From Theionarchaea archaeon (GTDB taxonomy: Archaea; Methanobacteriota_B; Thermococci; Methanofastidiosales; SZ-28-30): a DNA stretch of 64,000 nt. The notes under the pieces were generated by a model. The model ran no database searches. It saw only the letters and a list, made by a program, of their open reading frames with translations, and was not told the DNA's origin. The DNA is taken from assembly GCA_018992685.1 (NCBI GenBank), contig JACVGT010000002.1, forward strand, positions 1-64,000, given 5' to 3'. Positions 15,939 through 64,000 of the stretch are shown piece by piece; within the stretch, counting starts at the first letter, position 1, and each line of letters starts with the position of its first letter. The position numbers and the translations under genes were made by a program.

Positions 15939-17495
15939 TTATCTCCGCTTGAGTGCTACACCCAGCAATACGAGAGCAGATACAAAGGCAGTTCCAAGGC
16001 AGGTACCGCCACACTCACAACCACAATCTCCATCAGCTGGTGGAGACACACTGGGGTTGCTGATAATCTGCTGTACCGCAGCGTATGCATCTACACGACC
16101 CCATCCCCACAGGCAGTCTTTGTTGACATTGCCCTTGTCGATGGCAGTTGCACCCATGCAGTTCTTGACCTGCAATGGGGTGGCTGTACCACGGGCGTCC
16201 AGCATCAAGGCAGCAACACCTGCAATGTGCGGTGTGGCCATTGATGTACCAGACATTGAAACATCACTGCATGAGGTTCCGGAATCGGCAGCGTAGATAT
16301 ATACACCGGGAGCTGTGATATCGGGCTTTATTCTGTCGTCAGTAGTAGGACCTCTGGAAGAGAAGCTGGCAAGAGCATCTGACTTGTCAGAAGCACCAAC
16401 AGTGATGACATCTGTTGCATCACCAGGTGTGCTAATGGTGCAGCATGCTGAACCATCATTTCCAGCAGCACATACGACGACAACACCCTGACCTACAGCC
16501 CAGTTGCACTCCTTAGCCAATGCGCTAGTACCGTCGCCACCGCTTCCACCTAAAGACAGTGACTCCACATCTGCTCCCTGGGCAACTCCGAAGTCAATAC
16601 CCTGGATGATAGCACTGTCAGTGCATTGTCCGCCAGAAGTACATACTTTGGCCATCATGAGGTCTGCACCAGGTGCAACACCCTCAGGACTGTCTTCGCC
16701 AGCGGCAATGGATGAGCAGTGGGTACCGTGTCCATGGTCATCGTAAGGTGTGGATTGACTGTTGACGTAGTCTGCCCAGGCAATGATCTTCCCAGAGGGG
16801 AAGTCACAGTGGTTGGGGTCAATACCAGTGTCGATGATACATATTTTAATTCCAGTACCATCGTATCCAGCATACCAGCAGTCATCTGCGTTGATCAGCG
16901 GGATACTGTCAGATAAGGTGACGTAGGCGACACCGTCAGCTTCTACGAACTCAACCTCAGCGACCTCAGACAGAGCTTTGATGTTGGACACACGAATGTC
17001 CACAACAGCACCCATGCCACTGAGGAAGTTGTAGTAGACACTGCCGAATTTTTCCAGTTTGCTGGCAGCGTTGGGATTCTTGAACCATACTAGAGTTCTT
17101 ACAATGTCGTTTCCGTTCATGCCATTGATCTGGTCCTTGATTGACCACTTCATTTTGGCCACGTTGTTCGGTACGACGGCGACATATTCGTTAGAACCTA
17201 CTTCAGTTAAGTAGGCCATTGGTATCATGAAATCGGTATCACTGATCTGGACAATGGGAAGGTATTCTACATTGATTTCCTTCGTCACTCTGTTCAGAAC
17301 ACCAGAGCCAACCGATATGTACAGGAAGTCAGAATCTTCCCCTGTAATATCCATGTTGAGCTTCAGCAGGTCTCTTCCCTCGTATCCAAAAGTCTGGACG
17401 TGAATTACTCCCTTGGTGGGCTTAGCACTCACGGCAACTAGTGAGAAAACAAGCATACTTATTGTGGCAAGCACGAAGATCTTTCGACTCTTCAT
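15939..17495 (-). CDS. Secreted S8 subtilisin-like protease with C-terminal CLGT-TM-KRR tail
   Basis: Triad motifs IIDTGIDPNHC, DDHGHGTHCSS, MSGTSMATPHIAG; signal peptide; SD GGAGGTGAAGAAATG. Confidence 0.92.
   Translation of the reverse strand: MKSRKIFVLATISMLVFSLVAVSAKPTKGVIHVQTFGYEGRDLLKLNMDITGEDSDFLYISVGSGVLNRVTKEINVEYLPIVQISDTDFMIPMAYLTEVGSNEYVAVVPNNVAKMKWSIKDQINGMNGNDIVRTLVWFKNPNAASKLEKFGSVYYNFLSGMGAVVDIRVSNIKALSEVAEVEFVEADGVAYVTLSDSIPLINADDCWYAGYDGTGIKICIIDTGIDPNHCDFPSGKIIAWADYVNSQSTPYDDHGHGTHCSSIAAGEDSPEGVAPGADLMMAKVCTSGGQCTDSAIIQGIDFGVAQGADVESLSLGGSGGDGTSALAKECNWAVGQGVVVVCAAGNDGSACCTISTPGDATDVITVGASDKSDALASFSSRGPTTDDRIKPDITAPGVYIYAADSGTSCSDVSMSGTSMATPHIAGVAALMLDARGTATPLQVKNCMGATAIDKGNVNKDCLWGWGRVDAYAAVQQIISNPSVSPPADGDCGCECGGTCLGTAFVSALVLLGVALKRR
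15942..16560 (-). repeat. Near-identical 3' segment shared with the second subtilase gene (22023-22640)
   Basis: Side-by-side reading shows only scattered differences, unlike the 5' parts of the two genes. Confidence 0.85.
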
Positions 17496-17563
17496 TTCTT
17501 CACCTCCTTTTTCCTTGTTATGCAGCTGCACAAGGCAGGCACACATTTCTGTTTGCCCTCATG

Positions 17564-22019: not shown

Positions 22020-23570
22020 TTATCTCCGCTTGAGTGCTACACCCAGCAATACGAGAGCAGATACAAAGGCAGTTCCAAGGCAGGTACCGCCACACTCACA
22101 ACCACAATCTCCATCAGCTGGTGGAGACACACTGGGGTTGCTGATGATCTGCTGTACCGCAGCGTATGCATCTACACGGCCCCATCCCCACAGGCAGTCT
22201 TTGTTGACATTGCCCTTGTCGATGGCAGTTGCACCCATGCAGTTCTTGACCTGCAACGGGGTGGCTGTACCACGGGCATCCAGCATCAAGGCAGCAACAC
22301 CTGCAATGTGCGGTGTGGCCATTGAAGTACCAGACATGGCAACATCACTGCATGAGGTTCCTGCATCGGCAGCGTAGATTGACACACCAGGAGCTGTGAT
22401 GTCGGGCTTTATCCTGTCGTCAGTGGTAGGACCTCTGGAAGAGAAGCTGGCAAGAGCATCTGACTTGTCAGAAGCACCAACAGTGATGACATCTGTTGCA
22501 TCACCAGGTGTGCTAATGGTGCAGCAAGTTGAACCATCATTTCCAGCAGCACAAGCAACGACAGCGCCCTGACCTACAGCCCAGTTGCACTCCTGAGCCA
22601 AGGTGCTGGTACCGTCGCCACCGCTTCCACCTAAGGACAGAGACAATACATCTGCTCCCTGAGCGACTGCCCAGTCAATACCCTGGACGATAGCAGTTGT
22701 GGTACCGGACCCGGAAGAGTTCAGCACCTTTGCACCCATCAATGAAGCAGCCTTGGCTACACCATATGGTGATGCAGCACCTGCAGCAATGGATGCGCAG
22801 TGAGTACCGTGTCCATGGTCATCGTAGGCTGTGGTCTTGCTGTTGACATAGTCCACGAATTTCACAATCTTCCCAGAGGGGAAGTCACAGTGGTTGGGGT
22901 CAATACCAGTGTCAATGATGCAGATCTTAATTCCAGCACCATCGTATCCGGCATTCCAGCAGTCATCTGCGTTGATCAGAGGTACACTGGAAGACAGTGT
23001 TGCGTAGACAATGGCGTCATCTTCCAGGAACAGAATTCCAGCATCCTCAGACAGTGCCTTGATGTTGGAAACAGCGATGGTCATGGATGCTCCCAGTCCA
23101 CTGGCAAACTCGTAGGTGACTGTACCGAATTTGGTGAGGTCGACAGCTCCGCCCTTGTACATAACCATGATGTCCATCAGATCATTGCCGTTCTTTCCAG
23201 CGATCTTGTCCTTCAAGTTCCACTTGATCTTGGTGACATCGTTGGGGACGACAGCGACGAATTCATTGTCACCCACCTCAGTCAGATATGCTTTGGGGAT
23301 GCCAAAGGTCGTCTCATTGATCTGGACAATGGGCAGCTTGTCAACGTTGATCTCCTTCTCGATTCTGTTGAGCATTCCGGGGTTGACGTTAACATAAATG
23401 TAGCCGGAGTCTTCACCAGTGATGTCAACGTTGAGTTTCAGAACGTCTCTTCCCTCAAATCCGAAAGTTTGAACGTGAATTGTTGCGTTGGTGGGCTTAG
23501 CACTAACAGCAATCAGTGAGAAAACAAGCATAGCCACTGTAGCAAGCACAAATACCTTTCGCGTTTTCAT
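22020..23570 (-). CDS. Secreted S8 subtilisin-like protease, paralog of 15939-17495
   Basis: Same triad motifs and identical CGCECGGTCLGTAFVSALVLLGVALKRR tail. Confidence 0.92.
   Translation of the reverse strand: MKTRKVFVLATVAMLVFSLIAVSAKPTNATIHVQTFGFEGRDVLKLNVDITGEDSGYIYVNVNPGMLNRIEKEINVDKLPIVQINETTFGIPKAYLTEVGDNEFVAVVPNDVTKIKWNLKDKIAGKNGNDLMDIMVMYKGGAVDLTKFGTVTYEFASGLGASMTIAVSNIKALSEDAGILFLEDDAIVYATLSSSVPLINADDCWNAGYDGAGIKICIIDTGIDPNHCDFPSGKIVKFVDYVNSKTTAYDDHGHGTHCASIAAGAASPYGVAKAASLMGAKVLNSSGSGTTTAIVQGIDWAVAQGADVLSLSLGGSGGDGTSTLAQECNWAVGQGAVVACAAGNDGSTCCTISTPGDATDVITVGASDKSDALASFSSRGPTTDDRIKPDITAPGVSIYAADAGTSCSDVAMSGTSMATPHIAGVAALMLDARGTATPLQVKNCMGATAIDKGNVNKDCLWGWGRVDAYAAVQQIISNPSVSPPADGDCGCECGGTCLGTAFVSALVLLGVALKRR
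22023..22640 (-). repeat. Near-identical 3' segment shared with the first subtilase gene (15942-16560)
   Basis: By-eye alignment of the two segments. Confidence 0.85.
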
Positions 23571-23646
23571 TCTTTTTCACCTCCTTTGCGTATTTTGACA
23601 GCCTGCGAATAGATTCTTACAGGCAATCATACATCTTCTGTTCACC

Positions 23647-52915: not shown

Positions 52916-53890
52916 ATGGATAGCGAAATAATACAGATGATGGTGGGAGCCAAGAAAGTGATCAAGGAATGTGCCCAGACGAAGCCAGGCGAGAAGGTTC
53001 TGATAGTGACAGATACAGAGATTGAACTCAGCATATCGACTGCACTGGCTGCAGCTGCTTACTATGAAGATGCTGAACCCTTGATCGCTGTCATGACTCC
53101 TCGAAAAGGACACGCTGAAGAGCCCCCAGCACATGTCAGGGAGGCCATGCTGGCTTCTGATGTGATCGTCACCCCCACATCCAAAACACTGTTCCATACG
53201 AAAGCCACCAGGGATTCCTGTGCCAAAGGTGCACGTGTTCTCTCCATGACGGGTGCCCTCCCCCGCACTCTCATGCGGGGAGCAATTACTGCCAACTTTG
53301 AGGAGATAGAACCCATCTGCAGGAAACTGGCTGATCGGCTAACCGAGGCAGAAAAGATACATCTGACCACACCAGGGGGAACAGACATCACATCCTCCCT
53401 AAAGGGGAGAGTAGGACAGTTCGAGCCTGGTATTGCCAGGAACAAAGGTGATCTTGTGGGAGTGCCCGATATTGAGGCAAATATCTCTCCTGTGGAAGAC
53501 ACCTCCCAGGGGGTCTTCGTAATAGATGTGACAGCCACCGACTTCGGGTTTGTGGACGCACCCATCAGAATTGAAGTGAAAAATGGAAAGGCAGTTAAAA
53601 TTGAAGGTGGTGTCATAGCAGAGCGCCTGAAGAACTTGCTGGAGAGTGCACATGATCCCAACCAGTACTTTGTCGCAGAGTATGGACTTGGACTGAATCC
53701 AAAAGCAGAGCTGCAGGGGCGCATTATTGAGGATGAATCTGCTCTCGGTACAGCACACATTGCCCTTGGTGACAACATCACCCTTGGTGGACAGAATAGG
53801 GCACCGTTTCACATTGACCTCATTATGAAAGATCCCACAGTAGAGCTGGATGGCAAGGTCGTCATTGACCGGGACAAGGTCATGGTGTAG
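52916..53890 (+). CDS. M29 aminopeptidase-like / NicX-like metalloprotein
   Basis: C-terminal metal-ligand pattern VAEYGLGLNPKA..GTAHIALGDNITLGG..APFHIDLIM. Confidence 0.75.
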   Translation: MDSEIIQMMVGAKKVIKECAQTKPGEKVLIVTDTEIELSISTALAAAAYYEDAEPLIAVMTPRKGHAEEPPAHVREAMLASDVIVTPTSKTLFHTKATRDSCAKGARVLSMTGALPRTLMRGAITANFEEIEPICRKLADRLTEAEKIHLTTPGGTDITSSLKGRVGQFEPGIARNKGDLVGVPDIEANISPVEDTSQGVFVIDVTATDFGFVDAPIRIEVKNGKAVKIEGGVIAERLKNLLESAHDPNQYFVAEYGLGLNPKAELQGRIIEDESALGTAHIALGDNITLGGQNRAPFHIDLIMKDPTVELDGKVVIDRDKVMV

Positions 53891-53898
53891 GTGGATAC

Positions 53899-54615
53899 AT
53901 GTATGGCTGGCGGTGCAGAATAGGGCTGATCATACCTTCAGATAACACAGTCATGGAGAGTGAATTCAACAAGCTGTTCAGAGACATACCTGGTGTGAGT
54001 GTCCACGCAACCCGTGTCTTTCTGGAAGAACTCACTGTGGAAACATTGTTGCAGATGAAAGAGGGGTTGAAGAGAGCATGCGAAGAGCTCAAGAGTGCAG
54101 AGATGGATGTCCTTGCCTATGGTTGCACCAGTGGCAGCTTTGTTAAGGGATTGCATTTTGACCAGGAGATCATCCAGGAAATCGAAGAAGAGACCCAGAT
54201 AACTGCCACCACCACCTCCACAGCAGTTATTGAGGCATTGAGGAAGCTCAAGGTCAACAAGATCGCTCTGGGAACTCCCTATTCTGACGAAATCAACGAG
54301 AAGGCAATCCACTTCTTTGAAGGAAACAACATTGAAGTGACCAATTCTCGAGGGCTGAATGTTGTGCCTGACGTTGATGTTGGAAAGCAGGAACCCTACA
54401 TTGCATACAACCTGGGAATCAAAGTGAATACAGAGGATTGCGACTGCGTTTTCCTGAGCTGTACTGATTTCAGGACGGTTGAGATTATAGACCTTCTGGA
54501 AACCCGATTGAAAAAACCTGTCATCAGTTCAAACCAGGCCACCTTATGGCACTGTATTGCTCTGAAGAACCTGGGGATGACTCTCCCCGGGTATGGGACG
54601 CTTTTGGCAGGGTGA
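53899..54615 (+). CDS. Maleate isomerase / Asp-Glu racemase superfamily enzyme
   Basis: Two Cys motifs YGCTSGSF and LSCTDFRT; GLIIPSDNTVMESE N-terminus. Confidence 0.82.
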   Translation: MYGWRCRIGLIIPSDNTVMESEFNKLFRDIPGVSVHATRVFLEELTVETLLQMKEGLKRACEELKSAEMDVLAYGCTSGSFVKGLHFDQEIIQEIEEETQITATTTSTAVIEALRKLKVNKIALGTPYSDEINEKAIHFFEGNNIEVTNSRGLNVVPDVDVGKQEPYIAYNLGIKVNTEDCDCVFLSCTDFRTVEIIDLLETRLKKPVISSNQATLWHCIALKNLGMTLPGYGTLLAG

Positions 54616-54628
54616 AGAAGGTGTAACA

Positions 54629-55963
54629 ATGTCAGAAGAAATCGAAATTGACGAAGCACGGTTGAACCAATTTGTCCCCGAACCAGGGTACCTGGACGTC
54701 AACCAGAAGGGACACCTTGAGTTTGACGGGGTGGACTGTGTGGATCTCCGGGATCAGTATGGGTCCCCCTTGTATGTCATGAGTGAGAGAAGGATACGAG
54801 AAAACTACCGCAGTCTTGTGAACACCTTCACAGCACTGTACAGCAGGGCGAAGATTGCCTATGCCTACAAGGCAAACCCCATATTGGCAGCTTTGAGAAT
54901 TCTCAATGAAGAAGGTGCTACAGCAGAAGTGATATCCACGGGTGAACTCTTCCTGGCAAAAGTGGTAGGTGTCAGGGGAGACAATATTGTGCTCAATGGG
55001 TGCTACAAGGACAGGAAGGGTATCAGACTGGCCATCAGAATGGGTGCTGTGATTAACGTTGATTCATTTCATGAACTGGACATGGTTGATGAGGAAGCAT
55101 CTCATGTGGGGATACCTGCCAGGATTGGAATCCGCATAAACCCCATAGTCAGAACGGGTACATTGAGTGTCTGGGAGACTGCCTTGGACGAAAGCAAATT
55201 TGGGATCAGGTTGGAAAAGGGGTTGGAAGCCTACAAAAAGGCAAAGAGCTTGAAGAACGTGGAAATTGTTGGAATACACACTCATATTGGATCTCAGATT
55301 GAGAATACCAACCCGTACCGCGTAGCCAGTACTCGGATTATGGATTTTGTGGGAGATCTCAAAGAAAAGCTGGACATTGATCTTGAACTGGTGGATCTAG
55401 GTGGCGGGATTGCTGTCCCCTTCAAGTACATTGACCGTGCTCTCCTGGAGGAGTATGCTCATGCCATACTGGATCCTTTCATCCAGAAAAAGGAAGAGTG
55501 TGGATTGGGAGATTGTGACGTGGTCATTGAGCCGGGAGGGAGTATCATCGGCACCTCCACTATTCTGCTGGTGACTGTGGGAACTGTAAAGAGAGAGGAA
55601 TCAGGCAGGAAGTGGGCCCTGGTGGATGGTGGTGCAAATATCAATCTGCGGGCTACCCAGGGGTGGTATGTGTACCAGTCTGTGTGCTGCAACAAAATGA
55701 GGGAGACAAAAAAAGAGGTTGTCAATGTTGCAGGTCCTCTGTGTTATGCAGGAGACGTTCTGGGATACAACAGGGAGTTGCCCTACCTGGATGAAGGCGA
55801 TGTCCTGGCATTTCTGGATTGCGGAGCATATACCATGGCTATTCTCAATAGGTACAATTCCTATCCCTTCCCTGCAGCTGTCCTCATCACAGACAGTGTA
55901 CCCAGGATTATCAAGAGAAGAGAAGCTCTAGTTGATCTTTTCATGGGAGAGGAACTTATATAG
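54629..55963 (+). CDS. LysA-like PLP decarboxylase (alanine racemase fold) with non-canonical CYAGD motif
   Basis: AYAYKANP (PLP Lys), HTHIGSQ, EPGGSIIG, GPLCYAGDVLG. Confidence 0.88.
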   Translation: MSEEIEIDEARLNQFVPEPGYLDVNQKGHLEFDGVDCVDLRDQYGSPLYVMSERRIRENYRSLVNTFTALYSRAKIAYAYKANPILAALRILNEEGATAEVISTGELFLAKVVGVRGDNIVLNGCYKDRKGIRLAIRMGAVINVDSFHELDMVDEEASHVGIPARIGIRINPIVRTGTLSVWETALDESKFGIRLEKGLEAYKKAKSLKNVEIVGIHTHIGSQIENTNPYRVASTRIMDFVGDLKEKLDIDLELVDLGGGIAVPFKYIDRALLEEYAHAILDPFIQKKEECGLGDCDVVIEPGGSIIGTSTILLVTVGTVKREESGRKWALVDGGANINLRATQGWYVYQSVCCNKMRETKKEVVNVAGPLCYAGDVLGYNRELPYLDEGDVLAFLDCGAYTMAILNRYNSYPFPAAVLITDSVPRIIKRREALVDLFMGEELI

Positions 55964-55992
55964 TTCTTCTTTCTATTATATTGTGTGATAGT

Positions 55993-57216
55993 ATGGATTT
56001 TCGCCAATTGACTGAGATCAGGACAACATATGGAACTCCGACCTATGTGTATGACAAGCAGGTCATGGTCACGCAGTATCAGACCCTGGCTCAGAGCATT
56101 CACTATACTCCTCTCAAAATATATTATGCCTGTAAAGCTAACACCAATTGCGTTATACTGAGAATATTTAAGGAGTTAGGGTGTGGGGTGGACTGTGTCT
56201 CACCTGGCGAAGTCTTTCTTGCTTTGAAAGCAGGATTCGATTCTTCTGACATTTTATTTACAGGCAACAATCTCACAAATTCTGAAATGAAGTATGCTGT
56301 TTCTCATGATGTTTTGATGACTGCAGATTCTTTGTCTCAATTGGAGCTGTATGGGCAGATAAACCCGGAATCTGACGTTTGTGTCAGGATCAATCCCAAC
56401 CTGGGGGCAGGGCACCACAAACACGTCATTACGGGAGGGCTTCAGAGTAAATTCGGCATATACCAGGCTGATGTTCCTTACATCAGGTCGCTTCTACATA
56501 AGTATAACCTCCATTTGAAAGGCGTCCACATGCATATTGGCTCGGGGATTCTAGAGCCCGGACTGCTTCTCAAGGGCGTGAGTTCTCTCTTGGACGTGGC
56601 CAGTGAGTTCCCGGACCTGGAATTTGTAGACATTGGAGGGGGACTTGGGGTCCCATACGAGCCAGAGGAAGCACCCATGGATGTGCAGAAATTTGGCGAG
56701 CTGCTCACAGACATGATAACCCAGTGGGTTGAGCAGCATCACCAGATTGCCCTGGCCTTGGAACCAGGACGATTTCTGGTGGCAGAATCTGGCATTCTTC
56801 TAACTACGGTGACTGCAGTCAAAGAGAATCCCAAGTACACCTTTGTGGGTGTGGACACAGGGTTCAACCATTTCATGAGGCCTGCCCTGTATAATGCGTA
56901 CCATGAAATCGTCAAAGTGGAGCCTTCAGAATCCAGAGGAGGACTTCAGGAACGTGTTGACGTCACGGTGTGTGGTGACATCTGTGAGAGTGCAGACATA
57001 TTTGCCAGAAACAGAGCCCTCCCACCACTCAAAGAGGGTGATCTTCTGGCTATTTTGGATACGGGAGCATATGGATTCAGTATGGCATCAGAGTATAATT
57101 CCAGACCGCTCCCTGCAGAAGTCCTGGTTGATAAAACAACTGTTACCGAGATCAGAAAGAGAGGAACGTTCCAGGACTTGTTACGCAATCAATGTGAGGT
57201 AGATACCAATGGATAA
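55993..57216 (+). CDS. lysA: Diaminopimelate decarboxylase-like, canonical CESAD motif
   Basis: YYACKANTN, HMHIGSG, LEPGRFLVAESG, GDICESADIFA. Confidence 0.88.
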   Translation: MDFRQLTEIRTTYGTPTYVYDKQVMVTQYQTLAQSIHYTPLKIYYACKANTNCVILRIFKELGCGVDCVSPGEVFLALKAGFDSSDILFTGNNLTNSEMKYAVSHDVLMTADSLSQLELYGQINPESDVCVRINPNLGAGHHKHVITGGLQSKFGIYQADVPYIRSLLHKYNLHLKGVHMHIGSGILEPGLLLKGVSSLLDVASEFPDLEFVDIGGGLGVPYEPEEAPMDVQKFGELLTDMITQWVEQHHQIALALEPGRFLVAESGILLTTVTAVKENPKYTFVGVDTGFNHFMRPALYNAYHEIVKVEPSESRGGLQERVDVTVCGDICESADIFARNRALPPLKEGDLLAILDTGAYGFSMASEYNSRPLPAEVLVDKTTVTEIRKRGTFQDLLRNQCEVDTNG

Positions 57217-58336
57217 CCAGGAAATTAGGGCCCATTTCGAGCCTGCGGTGAGCAACTGGACATATTTGAACGCCGCAGCGTGCGGGCTTTCCCCGCAATT
57301 CAGTAAGACTGGATGCGATACGTGGTGGGACGATAAACTGACCCATGGATCAGTACATTACCATACATGGGAGGATGACACTCTCGAAATCAAAGCCAAG
57401 TTTGGGACCCTGATCAATGCAGAGAAAGAAGAGATTGCCTGCGTGATGAACACGTCAGAAGGGTTGAACTTTGCCATCAATGGTATGAGGTTCAAAAAGG
57501 GGGACAACGTCGTTGTGAATAAGTACGATTTTCCCTCCAATTTTCTGCCCTGGCTGGCCTTGAAGCAGAAGGGCGTCGAGGTACGGTTGATGGAGGTTAC
57601 GGATAATAGGATCCCCGTGGAACGTATTCAGGAGAAAGTCGATGAGAATACCAGAGCTGTGTCTATCAGCAGCGTTCAATTCAAGAACGGATTCCGCAGT
57701 GACCTGAAAGCACTTGGAGCATTGTGCAAGGAGGTTGATGCATATTTTGTGGTAGATGCTATCCAGTCACTGGGAGCGCTTGAAATGGATGTAAAACGGT
57801 ATGGAATTGACATTCTGTGTACCAGCAGCTACAAATGGTTGCTAGGCCCTGATGGTGTTGGCTTTCTGTACTGCAGCAAGGACATTCTGGATGAGATTTC
57901 CACCACGAATATTGGATGGATGAGTACACCTGATCCATGGAGTTTCCCCACTGAGCTGGAGTTCATGAAAACGGCTCAGAAATTCGAGTCTGGGACATTG
58001 CCCTGGGCCCTCCTGTACAGTATGGACCCTATCCTTGATTTCTTCCTCAAGGTAAAGGTGAAGAATATTACAGAACACGTTTTTGGGCTTCTTGATTACT
58101 TGATTGAGGAGCTGGAAGCCCTGCATGTGGACATTGTTTCATCCCTTCGAGAGAACGAGCGGAGCTGTATCCTGGTCTTTGATGTCAAGGACAGAGAGAA
58201 GCTTGTAGATCTCTATCAGAGCAAAAAGGTGAGAATCAGTCTCAGGGATGGAATACGGGTAGCCCCTCACATCTATAACAATGAGGATGATATTACCCGG
58301 CTTGTATCCATTTTAAAGGAGTTTCTGGGTGGTTAG
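57209..58336 (+). CDS. Class V aminotransferase / cysteine desulfurase-like PLP enzyme
   Basis: VVDAIQSLGALEMDVKRYGIDILCTSSYKWLLGPDGVGFLY; overlaps lysA by 8 nt. Confidence 0.88.
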   Translation: MDNQEIRAHFEPAVSNWTYLNAAACGLSPQFSKTGCDTWWDDKLTHGSVHYHTWEDDTLEIKAKFGTLINAEKEEIACVMNTSEGLNFAINGMRFKKGDNVVVNKYDFPSNFLPWLALKQKGVEVRLMEVTDNRIPVERIQEKVDENTRAVSISSVQFKNGFRSDLKALGALCKEVDAYFVVDAIQSLGALEMDVKRYGIDILCTSSYKWLLGPDGVGFLYCSKDILDEISTTNIGWMSTPDPWSFPTELEFMKTAQKFESGTLPWALLYSMDPILDFFLKVKVKNITEHVFGLLDYLIEELEALHVDIVSSLRENERSCILVFDVKDREKLVDLYQSKKVRISLRDGIRVAPHIYNNEDDITRLVSILKEFLGG

Positions 58337-59158
58337 ATGAAAATAGAAGGAATTACGTTCTATAAAATGTCTGGTGCAGGAAATGATTTCCTGGTTATTG
58401 ACAATCGAGAAGGCATCATCCCTGAGAAAGAGAAGGGTGACGTTGCCAGAAGAGTGTGCAGGAGACGGCTTTCAGTGGGAGCAGATGGGATTCTTCTGGT
58501 GGAGCTATCACAGATTGCCACCTTCAGAATGAGATATTTCAATGCAGACGGGACTGAAGGGGAAATGTGTGGAAATGGAGCACGATGCATTACCCGATTT
58601 GCTTTTGTGAAAGGGATTGCAGGCGAAGAAATGACAATTGAGAGTATGTCCGGGATACTGGAGGCACGCGTCATGGGTGAGAAGGCCACAATCACGCTGA
58701 ACCCAGTGACAGAAAAGGAACTTGACAGGGAGATTACGGTTGATGGCCAGAAGATACAGTTTGATTACATAGAAGAAGGAACACCCGGACTGCCGCACAG
58801 CGTGATATTCAAAGATGATCTGACTGAGGAGGAAGATATCGAAGAGATTGGCAGAAAAATAAGGTACCACAAAGCCTTTCAGAGGGGAACAAATGCTAAT
58901 TTCTGCAGAGTCCTGGGGAAGGATACAATCCTGAACAGGACCTACGAGAGGGGCGTGGAGAGAGAGACCCTGGCCTGTGGAACTGGGTCTGGAGCTGCTG
59001 CGTGTGCAGTATTCTTGCACGGAATCTGTGGACCTGAAATCGAGGTAAAAACCAAAGGTGGAACTCTCAAGGTCACCATAGGAGATGAAAACCTGCAGAA
59101 GATTTATTTGACTGGAGATGCTCGAATCGTGTATGAGGGGATCTTAAAGGAGGTATGA
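58337..59158 (+). CDS. dapF: Diaminopimelate epimerase-like
   Basis: KMSGAGNDFLVIDN, MCGNGARC and LACGTGSGA with both catalytic Cys; abuts previous gene. Confidence 0.93.
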   Translation: MKIEGITFYKMSGAGNDFLVIDNREGIIPEKEKGDVARRVCRRRLSVGADGILLVELSQIATFRMRYFNADGTEGEMCGNGARCITRFAFVKGIAGEEMTIESMSGILEARVMGEKATITLNPVTEKELDREITVDGQKIQFDYIEEGTPGLPHSVIFKDDLTEEEDIEEIGRKIRYHKAFQRGTNANFCRVLGKDTILNRTYERGVERETLACGTGSGAAACAVFLHGICGPEIEVKTKGGTLKVTIGDENLQKIYLTGDARIVYEGILKEV

Positions 59159-59483
59159 TCGGAGCTGGGTTGAACCAGGACGTGGACAGATTGTCTGGTG
59201 CAGAGTCAGGGAATCGGATAAAATTCAGTAGTATTAGTTCTTCCGGAAAAGAGAGACTTCTTTTGATACATTTCTGCAAACGTGGTATATAGACCTTGCA
59301 CTTGGAGAATTTTTTCAAATTTGCCATTTGATTCACTGTATCCCTTCCAGGGATAACCTAAGGTTTCTCTACTCACACAGATCTAAATTGGTGTCATCGA
59401 TCACAGTAATCGGCATATATCCATCGATATGACTTTCACGCTCAGGATAATACTTATATTGAACAAAACCACCGGGCAATCCA

Positions 59484-59695
59484 TGGCTACAGAATCCAGA
59501 AGAAGATTCACCTTCCCTGTAGGATACCATGAGTTCCACAGAGACCAGGTTTTCAATTTCCAGCTCAATCGCTGGTATTCTCTTGGATATACACGATTCG
59601 AAGATTTGAAAGAGGCGGTTTCCTCCAGAATTCTAGAGTTTAGAAAAGGGCCACGACTGCATAATCTCAGTTTGATTCGAAAGAGAACACTCTAG
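59484..59695 (+). pseudogene. N-terminal remnant of an alpha/beta-hydrolase-like gene
   Basis: FPVGYHEFHRDQVFNFQLNRWYSLGYTRFEDLKEA resembles the N-terminus of longer hydrolases, then the ORF stops. Confidence 0.45.
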
Positions 59696-60091
59696 AACAG
59701 CTGATCACTTCTTGTATCTACTCCGTTCTTTTCCTCCATGAATGGGGAACCTTATGAAAAGAACTGAAGGTATCCATTCCCGCTTCGTATGAACTACTAT
59801 TTCTTCTACTGTATTTCAACGTTTTAGTTCCAGGCTTTTTTCAAGTCCTCAAAAGTACTTTTCTAGCTGTTTTTTAGAAAATATGTCCTTAAAATATGAA
59901 GGCTCATAAACGTTCATAGTTCTACTATTCTTACCTTCAATTCTGCACTTTATGAATCATGTTTTTCTACCACGAACGCAAAGTAACAGTCAAATACGAC
60001 ATTCCAGTCCCGACTCCAGAGACTTGGTGCGCGTCATGAGTGAATAGCTAGATTTTTATATAACAGGTTTCAATGTCAAAATGGCGATGAA

Positions 60092-62530
60092 ATGATACAT
60101 TGTCCAGTATGCGGAGCAGAGAATCCTGTAGATTCTTTCTTCTGCGGAAGATGTGGAGAAAAGATAATTATTGAAAAGAGATCTCTGATTGACTGGCCAG
60201 ATTTTGAGAAGGCAGTTATTGACCGTTTGAAGAGAAACATTGGAAAAGAAGAAGATGATAATCAGAATAGAGCTATTGGAGCTCCTATCAACAGCTCTCT
60301 CTTCGTGGTTGCAGGTCCAGGGAGTGGCAAGACCACGGTTGTCGCTCTCAGAATACTGAAGTTGATATTTGTGGACGGTATAGATCCATCTTGTATCATC
60401 GCGACGACTTTTACACGCAAAGCAGCAGCTGAACTCCGATCTCGAATTCTTGGATGGGGAGATCAACTCAAACAATGGTTCATTACTGGCTCCATCTCTG
60501 AGTCTGATAGAGAATGGCTGAAAAAGCTTGATTTGAATCGGATTATTACAGGAACTCTTGATGAAATTGCAGAAACAATTTTAGGGGAAAACCGTTTCCC
60601 CGGAGACACTCCCCCTATTATAATCGAAAATTTCGTGTCAAAAGTACTGATGTTAAAATGTGGTCTTCTTCAGACCAATCTGCATTCTGATATGAACCTG
60701 GAAAACTTCATTATCTTTCTGAGAGATAGTAAATGGGAACTCACTATTTCGGAGAAGTGTTCCATTTTGCTCGAGTTGAAAGACAGATTTCTTCATGACC
60801 GTGTAGACGTTAGAGAATATCGTTCAGACTCCAGACACGCGGGAGCCAGACTAGCGTGTGAGGCAATAGGGGCATATATAGTTGAACTGAAGAAGAAAGA
60901 TCTCTTTGATTTCGCATTATTGGAATTACGATTATTCAATGATCTTAAAAATGGATTGTTAAATGAATTCCTTGGCAGTATCAGGTTTCTTCTAGTTGAT
61001 GAATACCAGGATACGAATTTGCTCCAGGAAGGAATTTATTTTGAAATTGCCAACGTGGTCACGAGAAATGATGGGAGCATTACTGTTGTTGGAGACGACG
61101 ACCAGTCTCTGTACCGATTTAGAGGGGCAACAGTTGACCTTTTCAAGACATTTCAGGAGAGAGTGAGTGAACAGCTGGGTCTGAACCCGTCTCAGATATT
61201 TCTTTCCAACAACTATAGATCGACGTCGACTATTGTTAATTTTTGTAATGATTTCATCAGACTTGATCAAAATTATCAGAAGACAAGAGTCAAAGAGAAG
61301 CCTTCTGTAAGACCAGCTCGTGCTAGGAGAAATCCAGAGTTCCCAGTCATCGGAATGTTCAGGCCTAATGTTGATCAGCTTGCACAGGATATTGCCACGT
61401 TTGTCCACGAAGTCATCCGTGGGAAGGGCTTCCGTATCAGGGATAATCAGAACGACATGACCTACACTATAAGAGTTGACGCTGACAGAGGAGGTCCTGC
61501 AGATGTTGCCCTTCTCTTTCATTCTCCTCGTGAATATAGTTATGAAAGAAGGAGACTCCCCTTGCTTTTGCGAGAAGAATTCAGCAAGTTCTTGCCACCA
61601 CTCCTGGTTTTCAATCCTCGAGGTCAGAATTTCGAGGAAATTCCTACTGTCAAAATACTCTGTGGCTTGTTACTGGAATGCATAGACCCAGGTAGTCGCG
61701 TCCAAAATGCGCTTAACCTCTCCTCTGCAGCACATGAGGTCATGGAAAAGTGGAGGGAGACTGCAAGGAGGTATGTTGAAACAAATCATGTATCCTCATC
61801 AATGGGCAGCCTTCGTTCCTTCATAGATACCTGGCAGAAAAGATCAACCCCAGGAATGAAGCGAAAAGTCAACATGAACGTGTCTCTGATAGCATTGGTG
61901 TACAAACTTATTACGTGGATACCACCCATGCAGGATGACATAGAGAATCTGGTCTATCTGGAAGCCATCGTAAGAACGATCAATCAACTGAACCCTTCTG
62001 GTAGATATGGGGGGCACATTGTGCTCAACAGTGAGAAGCTCTGGTTGCAGCAGGATTCCATAGAAGAAGCGATATACAGTATATTTTTCCCCATGGCATC
62101 TGGAGCAGTGGAGGTCAACGAGGATCTTTTTGAAACTCTTCCCAGGGACAGAGTCAACTGCATGTCCATTCATCAATCCAAGGGCCTGGAATTCCCTCTT
62201 GTTATCGTGGATGTGGGTTCTGAATTTCTAGGAGATAATGAAATGCAGGCATTCAAGAGATTCCCAAGACGAGGTGGAAGGACAAGTAGAATCGAAGATG
62301 AGACCAGAGACTATTCTGATCTGAGATTTTTCACAAGAACAGGCTTAGATAGGGAATTTGACGATTTGATTAGATTATATTTTGAAGCCTATAGTAGAGC
62401 CAAAGACTGCCTGATGCTCGTAGGCCTGGAAAGCGTCAAGTCTGGTCGAGTACCACATGTCGCCACCGGATGGGATCGAAACAGAACCTGGTTCTGGAGG
62501 CATACACTTGGAAATGTGCTCTATATCTAG
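60092..62530 (+). CDS. UvrD/Rep-type SF1 helicase with N-terminal zinc ribbon
   Basis: CPVCGAENPVDSFFCGRCG; AGPGSGKTTVVALRIL; LLVDEYQDTN; GDDDQSLYRFRGA; NYRST; HQSKGLEFPLVIV. Confidence 0.92.
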   Translation: MIHCPVCGAENPVDSFFCGRCGEKIIIEKRSLIDWPDFEKAVIDRLKRNIGKEEDDNQNRAIGAPINSSLFVVAGPGSGKTTVVALRILKLIFVDGIDPSCIIATTFTRKAAAELRSRILGWGDQLKQWFITGSISESDREWLKKLDLNRIITGTLDEIAETILGENRFPGDTPPIIIENFVSKVLMLKCGLLQTNLHSDMNLENFIIFLRDSKWELTISEKCSILLELKDRFLHDRVDVREYRSDSRHAGARLACEAIGAYIVELKKKDLFDFALLELRLFNDLKNGLLNEFLGSIRFLLVDEYQDTNLLQEGIYFEIANVVTRNDGSITVVGDDDQSLYRFRGATVDLFKTFQERVSEQLGLNPSQIFLSNNYRSTSTIVNFCNDFIRLDQNYQKTRVKEKPSVRPARARRNPEFPVIGMFRPNVDQLAQDIATFVHEVIRGKGFRIRDNQNDMTYTIRVDADRGGPADVALLFHSPREYSYERRRLPLLLREEFSKFLPPLLVFNPRGQNFEEIPTVKILCGLLLECIDPGSRVQNALNLSSAAHEVMEKWRETARRYVETNHVSSSMGSLRSFIDTWQKRSTPGMKRKVNMNVSLIALVYKLITWIPPMQDDIENLVYLEAIVRTINQLNPSGRYGGHIVLNSEKLWLQQDSIEEAIYSIFFPMASGAVEVNEDLFETLPRDRVNCMSIHQSKGLEFPLVIVDVGSEFLGDNEMQAFKRFPRRGGRTSRIEDETRDYSDLRFFTRTGLDREFDDLIRLYFEAYSRAKDCLMLVGLESVKSGRVPHVATGWDRNRTWFWRHTLGNVLYI

Positions 62531-62533
62531 GAT

Positions 62534-63733
62534 GTGAGAGGAATGACATTATCACCACAAGTCCCGCCGTACAAGATACCTGAATACAGCCTGACAGGAG
62601 ATTTACTGGCATACTTGAATTGTGGACTTCAATACAGGTACCATAATAGAGGATGTCTGCCGCCTTCAAGGCCAATTCAGTTGTGGTTTGGTGAGTTCAT
62701 TCATTCAGTCATGGAGGAAGCTTTCCTCCAATGGAAGCAAGATGCTCAGAAGAAGATATTTCCATGGATGTGGAATCCTGATATCCGCAACATTGAGCAA
62801 GAGATAGGCAAAAGACTGAGAGCACGAGGACTGATTCCACCTGCGAGAATCTTCTGCCCGTATGACTCATCATACCGGAGACAGGGATGGTGTCCAGATG
62901 GAAAGCACCCTCATAAACTGATTGCAAGCCGGAGAGCTGAAGAAGCGATTAACACATGGGGGGTACATCTCTTTCCCTTAATTGACAGTGCTGAGGTCCG
63001 GCTGAAAGGTATTCGTGATATGCCTGGTTCTACGGGGGAAAGGAGGTGTGATTACTATGAGATAACAGGGATCATTGATGTGATAAGCTCTGTCAATCTT
63101 CGTAATTCACTGTCTGGAAACCTGATATTGCACTACATGCAGAGAAACCCCGCTGTGAAGAAGTACATTGACAGTCTGAAGGGGCCTGAGTATGAGATTA
63201 TCGTTGACTACAAAGGAATGGGGAGACCCTCTTTAGGAGACCCGAGAAGAACCTGGACGTATCATGAATGGCAAATACTCACGTATGCCTGGCTTCGCAG
63301 TCAGCAGCCCGATGCCAGGCCTGTAGCTGCGGGGATCATTTTCTATCTCAATGAATTGGCGCCGGTGAGGCGAGACATCAGAGAGCTGCGCGAGAGTGTA
63401 GAAAGAGGTTCAACAGATGTCGTACCTCAAGGACAGGATTTAGACGTCGTCCAGAGTCTGGGAAGGAACGTACCCTTCCCATTTCTCTCGAGAGAATTCA
63501 GGGAAGAAAGGTCTATAAGGATTATTCCAATGAGTGAAGAGAGAGTCCAAGCCTCTCTACATGAATTTGATACTGTGGTGAAAAACATCGAATCTTGCGT
63601 GCACCTGGAGGTTTCTGGAAATGGCATTAGGTCGTCATGGCCTGCACAACCACTTGAACGTATGTGCACGCTCTGCGATTTCAGGACATTCTGCCCACAT
63701 CCGGACGTCTCTGAGTATGGAGAAAGCAGATGA
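62534..63733 (+). CDS. RecB/AddB/Cas4-type PD-(D/E)XK nuclease with probable Fe-S cluster cysteines
   Basis: GIIDVIS, IIVDYKGMG, HEWQILTYAWL (QxxxY); Cys in YLNCGLQYRYHNRG and CTLCDFRTFC. Confidence 0.82.
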   Translation: MRGMTLSPQVPPYKIPEYSLTGDLLAYLNCGLQYRYHNRGCLPPSRPIQLWFGEFIHSVMEEAFLQWKQDAQKKIFPWMWNPDIRNIEQEIGKRLRARGLIPPARIFCPYDSSYRRQGWCPDGKHPHKLIASRRAEEAINTWGVHLFPLIDSAEVRLKGIRDMPGSTGERRCDYYEITGIIDVISSVNLRNSLSGNLILHYMQRNPAVKKYIDSLKGPEYEIIVDYKGMGRPSLGDPRRTWTYHEWQILTYAWLRSQQPDARPVAAGIIFYLNELAPVRRDIRELRESVERGSTDVVPQGQDLDVVQSLGRNVPFPFLSREFREERSIRIIPMSEERVQASLHEFDTVVKNIESCVHLEVSGNGIRSSWPAQPLERMCTLCDFRTFCPHPDVSEYGESR

Positions 63734-63737
63734 TACT

Positions 63738-64000
63738 ATGGAAATGAAGTTCTATTTGCCAGATTGGGAAGACCGGCTGGATCCAGATTTTGATTTCGCC
63801 AATGACGAATATTCGGAAGGGCACAAAGAGAACCCCTATACATATGATATGTATGCGCATCAGCTCTTTGATACACCTCTCTGTGATGGAATTCTCGTCA
63901 GTCTGAGTATTTTCAGATCGAAAATCTCTTTGAATAAGGAAGAGACAAGCTATAGTATACGAGATTGCAGGAACATAAAGGATTTCCTCAGAATCCCGGG
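63738..64000 (+). CDS. Truncated ORF at window edge, possible TGT/DpdA-like protein
   Basis: My translation: MEMKFYLPDWEDRLDPDFDFANDEYSEGHKENPYTYDMYAHQLFDTPLCDGILVSLSIFRSK..; 4 nt after nuclease stop; runs off the window. Confidence 0.5.
   Translation, partial: MEMKFYLPDWEDRLDPDFDFANDEYSEGHKENPYTYDMYAHQLFDTPLCDGILVSLSIFRSKISLNKEETSYSIRDCRNIKDFLRIP

Follow-up and report, generated by a model that had tools for sequence, protein, structure and literature searches.

What do a helicase and a nuclease do in one operon with an enzyme that modifies DNA bases? The question is raised by the right-hand end of a 64,000-nt stretch of DNA from a methanogen-related Theionarchaea archaeon (contig JACVGT010000002.1, positions 1 to 64,000; hereafter, the window). 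This contig (C4), of which the window covers the first 64 kb, is 80,293 bp long and belongs to a 3.03-Mb genome (G000; 45 contigs, 91% complete). An earlier note, made from the letters of the window alone, described a UvrD-like helicase, a PD-(D/E)XK nuclease and a third open reading frame (ORF) cut by the window's end, and proposed that these could be a compact archaeal modification or defence module. Canonical Dpd systems (Salmonella Montevideo type) have up to eleven genes, with dpdA-C for synthesis of the modified base and dpdD-K for restriction. We conclude, with a probability of roughly 0.6, that the operon is a compact Dpd variant without DpdB, in which an AddAB-like helicase–nuclease pair replaces DpdD-K, and that it is carried on an acquired island.

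All three ORFs were found as described, the third leaving the window:

60053-60063, + strand: candidate archaeal promoter of the operon, a TATA-like box TTTTTATATAA that lies 39 nt upstream of the helicase gene (a consensus match only)
60092-62530, + strand: helicase gene, 812 aa, SF1 UvrD/AddA-like
about 60101-60157, + strand: N-terminal zinc ribbon of the helicase, species-specific
62534-63733, + strand: nuclease gene, 399 aa, GTG start, PD-(D/E)XK, AddB/Cas4-like
63738-64994 of contig C4 (4739-5995 of locus L002), + strand: dpdA, 418 aa, ATG start; the window covers 63738-64000 only

The genes are closely packed. Both spacings had been put at 4 nt; this is correct for the nuclease stop and the dpdA start, while the gap between the helicase stop and the nuclease start is 3 nt. 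The more AT-rich codon use noticed previously is real but modest, the trio having a GC content of 0.42-0.48 and a third-position GC content (GC3) of 0.42-0.47, compared to contig gene means of 0.470 and 0.486.

The third gene matches dpdA over its whole length

The suggestion that the third gene is DpdA-like was strongly borne out when the sequence was extended past position 64000 and the full 418-aa protein was searched. The protein matches NCBIfam NF041059 (1.5e-125, 419 bits, cut-off 200), the PADLOC DpdA model (1.4e-123) and, over its whole length, the solved DNA-guanine transglycosylase 7ui4 (phmmer, 1.1e-83). It is thus a DpdA of the tRNA-guanine transglycosylase (TGT) type, and not a protein without a TGT fold, the outcome that the earlier note had regarded as fatal to its idea. 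An ordinary tRNA TGT is ruled out, with about 30 bits for TgtA/tRNA TGT versus 419 bits for DpdA. Every full-length DpdA homologue in the alignment retains the catalytic residues D97 and D268, the two Asp motifs GDCGAF and SFDSAS, and the zinc motif CxCxxC...H, with minor variants around these motifs. Judged by these matches and by its predicted catalytic Asp and zinc residues, all intact, the third gene is a true DpdA, and its product very probably exchanges guanine for 7-cyano-7-deazaguanine (preQ0) in DNA.

Other TGT-like genes were seen in passing. A TGT-like protein of about 350 aa is common to the genus (G000:C21:1442-1981; L007, 1333-2358), and no full-length TgtA was noticed in these two genomes, as judged from the DpdA search only. 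Elsewhere in the window's class (G033, contig C1), a short TGT-like gene (111198) and a DUF6884 gene (115835) lie 4.6 kb apart and may represent another base-modification cluster.

The helicase and nuclease form a fixed pair

By profile, the first protein is a UvrD-type helicase (PF00580, 1.5e-43) with intact Walker and helicase motifs. The fold of its AlphaFold model (pLDDT 85.5) matches UvrD and AddA/RecB/AdnB structures, with a best E value of 2.5e-23. The N-terminal zinc ribbon reported earlier is also present. Because the window's helicase alone carries one (the ribbon is absent from all 81 other helicase rows compared, some of them incomplete), we rejected the ribbon as a conserved functional feature.

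The nuclease is a separate 399-aa protein with no helicase match. It matches PDDEXK_1 (PF12705, 5e-11); a sequence-profile search against the PDB gave no match, and similar folds came from fold comparison of its structure model (pLDDT 82.9), the best PDB matches being AddB (3u44_B, 2e-4) and the Cas4-like ACE1 (7e-4). Among 23 aligned sequences, D182, E221, D225, K227, Q247 and Y251 are invariant, as are C30, C378, C381 and C387. The latter are putative Fe-S cysteines, in agreement with the earlier description of a PD-(D/E)XK nuclease with cysteines of this type. Whether or not a copy is linked to DpdA, its active site is conserved to the same degree.

We scanned about 85,000 species genomes for the nuclease, which yielded 144 relatives, and compared the loci of 80 of these. 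The helicase adjoins the nuclease in 74 of the 80. Helicase and four-cysteine nuclease are a fixed pair.

The gene set recurs in unrelated phyla

Loci with the gene order helicase-nuclease-DpdA come from Altiarchaeota (L038), Dehalococcoidia (L040), an uncultured archaeon (L042), Pyrohabitans (L046), Methanoregula (L110) and Anaerolineae (L095), and the taxa represented include Hydrothermarchaeota and Chloroflexota. Bacteroidota (L143) have the same order with a more distant helicase and nuclease. The pair also occurs within larger bacterial dpd clusters: together with DpdB and queuosine-precursor genes in rhizobial loci (L034, L035, L115), with DpdD in L112, and with DpdE/DpdG-like genes in L083 (L083/L142). 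On a cyanobacterial plasmid (L036), it accompanies DpdA. Since the same gene order recurs in unrelated phyla, the arrangement is not due to chance. A compact modification or defence module remains the best description of what is a recurrent unit, but it is not purely archaeal, being found also in Chloroflexota, Bacteroidota, a virus and bacterial dpd islands. In L040, a Vut_1-family (PF02592) transporter gene follows DpdA; YhhQ transporters are known near dpd islands (PMC11888242). A Bacillota locus (L039, 3652-7102) contains a broken helicase and nuclease, followed by a Vut_1-family transporter gene; DpdA is missing, and the operon seems to be decaying there.

Co-occurrence points in the same direction outside one order. 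DpdA is present in 11 of 29 nuclease genomes (in one of them cut short where the contig ends), and none of the 11 belongs to Methanobacteriales; with Thermoplasmata set aside as well, most nuclease cases have DpdA in the genome. In the phylum of Methanoregula (G140; 295 genomes), the nuclease family is found in 7 genomes (three with weak partial matches), DpdA in 11 and both in 6. Thus, DpdA is present in 6/7 nuclease-family genomes versus 5/288 without the nuclease (Fisher p = 4e-9). When only strong nuclease matches are counted, DpdA is present in 3/4 (p = 1.5e-4).

The Methanobacteriales behave differently. All 14 genomes tested have the pair, and none has DpdA above the cut-off; there the pair stands alone, in conserved synteny. 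Hence the pair by itself does not imply DpdA, and we discarded the idea that it is a strict marker. In the nuclease tree, these DpdA-free copies cluster in a single clade (100/98) that arises from among the DpdA-linked copies, which hold the deep branches, and the main groups are the same in the nuclease and DpdA trees. The simpler explanation is that DpdA was lost, though this is not proven, as the root of the tree was not inferred.

Several further features of Methanobacteriales are worth recording. In Methanobrevibacter (L054, 4510-7413, and other loci), the pair is mostly divergent from a gene for a MrfA/YprA-type helicase, again in conserved synteny. Six loci of the order, mostly from termite gut, have the nuclease with no adjoining helicase. 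In Methanobrevibacter cuticularis (G126:C126:72684-72767), there is a short match to the DpdA C-terminus with an internal stop, possibly the remnant of a lost DpdA.

DpdB, DUF6884 proteins and preQ0 supply

The DpdB family (PF14072) was found in a Bradyrhizobium control (G143) but in neither the window's genome nor 10 other DpdA genomes. Not all of these genomes are complete, so that any one absence is soft evidence, unlike the overall pattern. As for dpdD-K, in a comparison confined to the operon and its surroundings, neither operon partner of DpdA matches their PADLOC models among the families listed, and the neighbouring genes look unrelated by eye.

A partner that does recur is a DUF6884/YaaA-like protein, DUF6884 being the domain of dpdC (PMC11888242). 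In L040, L042, L045 and L046, such a protein of 156-178 aa is encoded directly upstream of the helicase and also scores against the PADLOC DpdC model; in L038, the tail of a DUF6884/YaaA-like gene is seen upstream of the helicase at the contig edge. In Methanomicrobia and Bacteroidota (L110, L140, L145, L143), DpdA ends in a fused DUF6884 domain, and in the bacterial clusters L036 (judged by eye), L112 and L142 its N-terminus is extended by a DpdC-like part. DUF6884 is next to or fused with DpdA in nearly every untruncated case other than the window. In the window's genome, the sole DUF6884 gene found is unlinked, on another contig (C2:80591), and its product has CxxxK and SAxxG motifs. The sister species G020, which has no DpdA, encodes a copy that is 77% identical to this protein. 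As a side remark, L045 (DYFG01000037.1) is titled Nitrosotalea, yet its genome (G122) falls in the phylum set of Methanoregula G140, so that name and placement disagree.

The earlier note had suggested looking for queuosine/archaeosine genes nearby. None of the expected preQ0 genes is near the operon; a genome search for QueC, an enzyme of the preQ0 pathway, placed its gene on a different contig (C10:3527, 240 bits). This would be expected of an archaeon making archaeosine.

The operon lies on an island, and a virus carries relatives

Comparison with the sister species G020 delimits the surroundings of the operon:

59157-79378 of the contig (window part 59157-64000), no strand: insertion of about 20 kb that holds the trio, missing at the same site in G020
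59329-59618, + strand: left copy of a 290-bp direct repeat, 93% identical to contig 77786-78075 (self-blastn)

The G020 sequence is collinear with window positions 53135-59156 at 84.5% identity and picks up again at contig position 79379. Most of the island is enclosed by the direct repeat, whose left copy overlaps a truncated alpha/beta-hydrolase gene (ORF 59429-59695), and lower GC runs on for about 20 kb downstream. A horizontally acquired island appears to be the best explanation for these sequence features. A binning artefact is unlikely, because the contig matches the sister species collinearly on either side of the island. Elsewhere in the window, duplicated genes form a 1.59-kb direct repeat (15939-17510 and 22020-23587, 81% identity).

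An 86-kb virus contig (IMGVR_UViG_3300006094_000039; L169, L171, L172) encodes a contractile-tail set, with tail sheath, tape-measure and baseplate genes, as well as a DNA polymerase. It has two cassettes, from two sub-families: DUF6884-helicase-nuclease, and DUF6884 fragment-helicase-nuclease-DpdA. The single viral DpdA is 59% identical to that of the window. This contig is the sole such case in the IMG/VR scans, of which the one made with the window's DpdA alone gave no match and the alignment-based one gave four contigs.

What the pair may do

We envisage the following mechanism. DpdA would remove guanine from DNA and insert preQ0 that the cell already makes for tRNA archaeosine. In the sister systems, the DUF6884 (DpdC-like) protein would then convert the nitrile; here, this step might be carried out by the unlinked resident DUF6884 protein, or by none, in which case dPreQ0 would remain. 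With no DpdB found, strand opening for the base exchange would fall to DpdA alone or to the helicase. The AddAB-like helicase and nuclease would then constitute one machine that unwinds and degrades unmarked DNA, in place of DpdD-K. The sequence itself establishes which protein DpdA is, the intact active sites, the recurrence of the operon, the lack of a DpdB match, the position on an island and the presence of QueC in the genome; from these we infer the DNA modification and the resulting base, as well as restriction by the pair. The operon offers no other candidate for a restriction machine, and degradation of unmodified DNA would be the best-supported role for the pair.

A number of observations weigh against this interpretation. 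A helicase–nuclease pair that is widespread in the absence of the third gene had been named at the outset as a result that would count against a dedicated module, and this is what all 14 Methanobacteriales genomes show. The pairs in these genomes keep all catalytic residues; being retained without DpdA, they must be nontoxic to unmodified DNA there or respond to some other trigger. The restriction reading is weakened by this, but not removed. In the virus, two cassettes alongside DpdA make a restriction role less obvious than a modification role. Together, the DpdA-free pairs and the viral copies keep open a role for the pair in modification or in general DNA processing. Finally, neither DpdB nor a canonical restriction gene is linked to the window's operon, nor does the operon contain a DUF6884 gene, even one hidden upstream of the helicase, and relatives do carry one.

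The strongest alternative is that the pair serves modification, the helicase opening the duplex for DpdA in place of the ATPase DpdB and the nuclease trimming or repairing faulty products. Compact systems lack DpdB and have no other ATP-driven partner, the genes of the pair and dpdA are closely linked, only 3-4 nt apart within one operon, and a tailed virus with the pair twice and DpdA once would likely use them to protect its own DNA. However, the invariant active site and putative Fe-S cysteines of the nuclease count against such a role, and the rhizobial dpd clusters L034, L035 and L115 have the pair along with DpdB and hence need no substitute. We consider this explanation unlikely.

Less credible still is a general AddAB-like end-processing or broad defence nuclease that merely travels with DpdA, the latter marking DNA independently. 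Besides the fold matches to AddAB/RecBCD/AdnAB and the solitary, syntenic pairs of Methanobacteriales, the neighbours of some copies would fit: in a Methanobacteriaceae genome (L041, 4533-8230), genes for an N6 DNA methylase and an ADP-ribosylglycohydrolase come after the pair, as though it were coupled to a different DNA mark, and in L105 it lies beside an SMC-like ATPase and a NERD-UvrD helicase. Yet the solitary copies are one derived clade while the deep branches are DpdA-linked, and DpdA is present in most nuclease genomes that belong neither to Methanobacteriales nor to Thermoplasmata. A decaying or incomplete acquisition, i.e. a Dpd remnant that has lost its DUF6884 gene and its function, is improbable: the lack of this gene beside the operon, unlike in relatives, and the rarity of DpdA (above the cut-off in only 1 of 115 genomes of the window organism's phylum) are offset by three intact reading frames with conserved catalytic residues, by the DUF6884 protein with both motifs encoded elsewhere in the genome, and by the acceptance in the literature of islands making perhaps only dPreQ0 (PMC11888242).

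If the pair is indeed the restriction arm of a compact Dpd variant, several consequences follow. How Dpd restricts is an unsolved question, partly because as many as eight genes of the canonical island (DpdD-K) are candidates; with the pair as the only candidate, this step would become testable with two proteins and one modified substrate, and the two-cassette virus offers a way to separate modification from restriction roles. Cellular DNA deazaguanine marking would also be extended to non-halophilic archaea, in which preQ0 is already produced for tRNA. The one survey of dpd islands found in the literature searched counted islands with both dpdA and dpdB, and the phyla it reports are all bacterial (PMC11888242); hence, DpdB-less systems would have been overlooked, and the recurrence of this small set, mostly joined by a fourth gene, points to a pared-down modify-and-restrict system that published surveys would have missed. 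Tentatively, one might go further and see here a separate minimal class of DNA 7-deazaguanine restriction-modification, made up of DpdA, a DUF6884 nitrile-converting protein and one AddAB-like pair, occurring in archaea, bacteria and viruses without DpdB or DpdD-K, with the pair later freed from DpdA to stand alone in Methanobacteriales. We hold this broader proposal to be possible, at somewhat less than even odds.

Comparison with known systems

In the literature searched, we found no description of a UvrD–nuclease pair with DpdA, although an earlier mention in the primary Dpd papers is possible. Similarities to several known systems are nonetheless evident. Gabija (GajAB) has a UvrD-like helicase, and the helicase here scores against GajB models; however, there is no GajA-type ATPase-TOPRIM gene in the operon, and the partners are instead a Cas4/AddB-type nuclease and DpdA. 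BRIGADE of halophilic archaea (PMC12458937) is likewise archaeal, related to deazaguanine and sometimes accompanied by a PD-(D/E)XK nuclease, but is defined by YprA-family helicases, and the helicase here is of the SF1 UvrD-like type. BREX-Related Capture (BRC, PMC12839542) has a DpdA-like TGT without DpdB or DpdC, with another ATPase proposed as substitute, whereas the HerA/FtsK and BREX parts of BRC are not in the window's operon.

The pair itself most resembles AddAB/RecBCD/AdnAB, which yield the best fold matches of both proteins: a UvrD-type motor with a predicted AddB-like (putative Fe-S type) RecB-family nuclease. It is not AddAB proper, in that the nuclease lacks a helicase half and is not fused to a helicase subunit; a nuclease domain is likewise absent from the helicase, and the two are linked to a DNA base-modifying enzyme.

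By membership, the operon is not a canonical Dpd system, because DpdB was tested for and not found and the DpdC-like gene lies outside the operon. It differs from the canonical system in that DpdB was not found in the genome, that none of DpdD-K was recognised next to the operon, and in having 3-4 genes versus up to eleven; in their stead are the UvrD-like helicase and PD-(D/E)XK nuclease, neither of which is matched by the PADLOC Dpd models among the families listed. What it has in common with that system is a DpdA homologous along its whole length, the precursor preQ0, a DUF6884/DpdC-like partner in the sister operons, and location on an island. In its modification half, the operon would work like Dpd.

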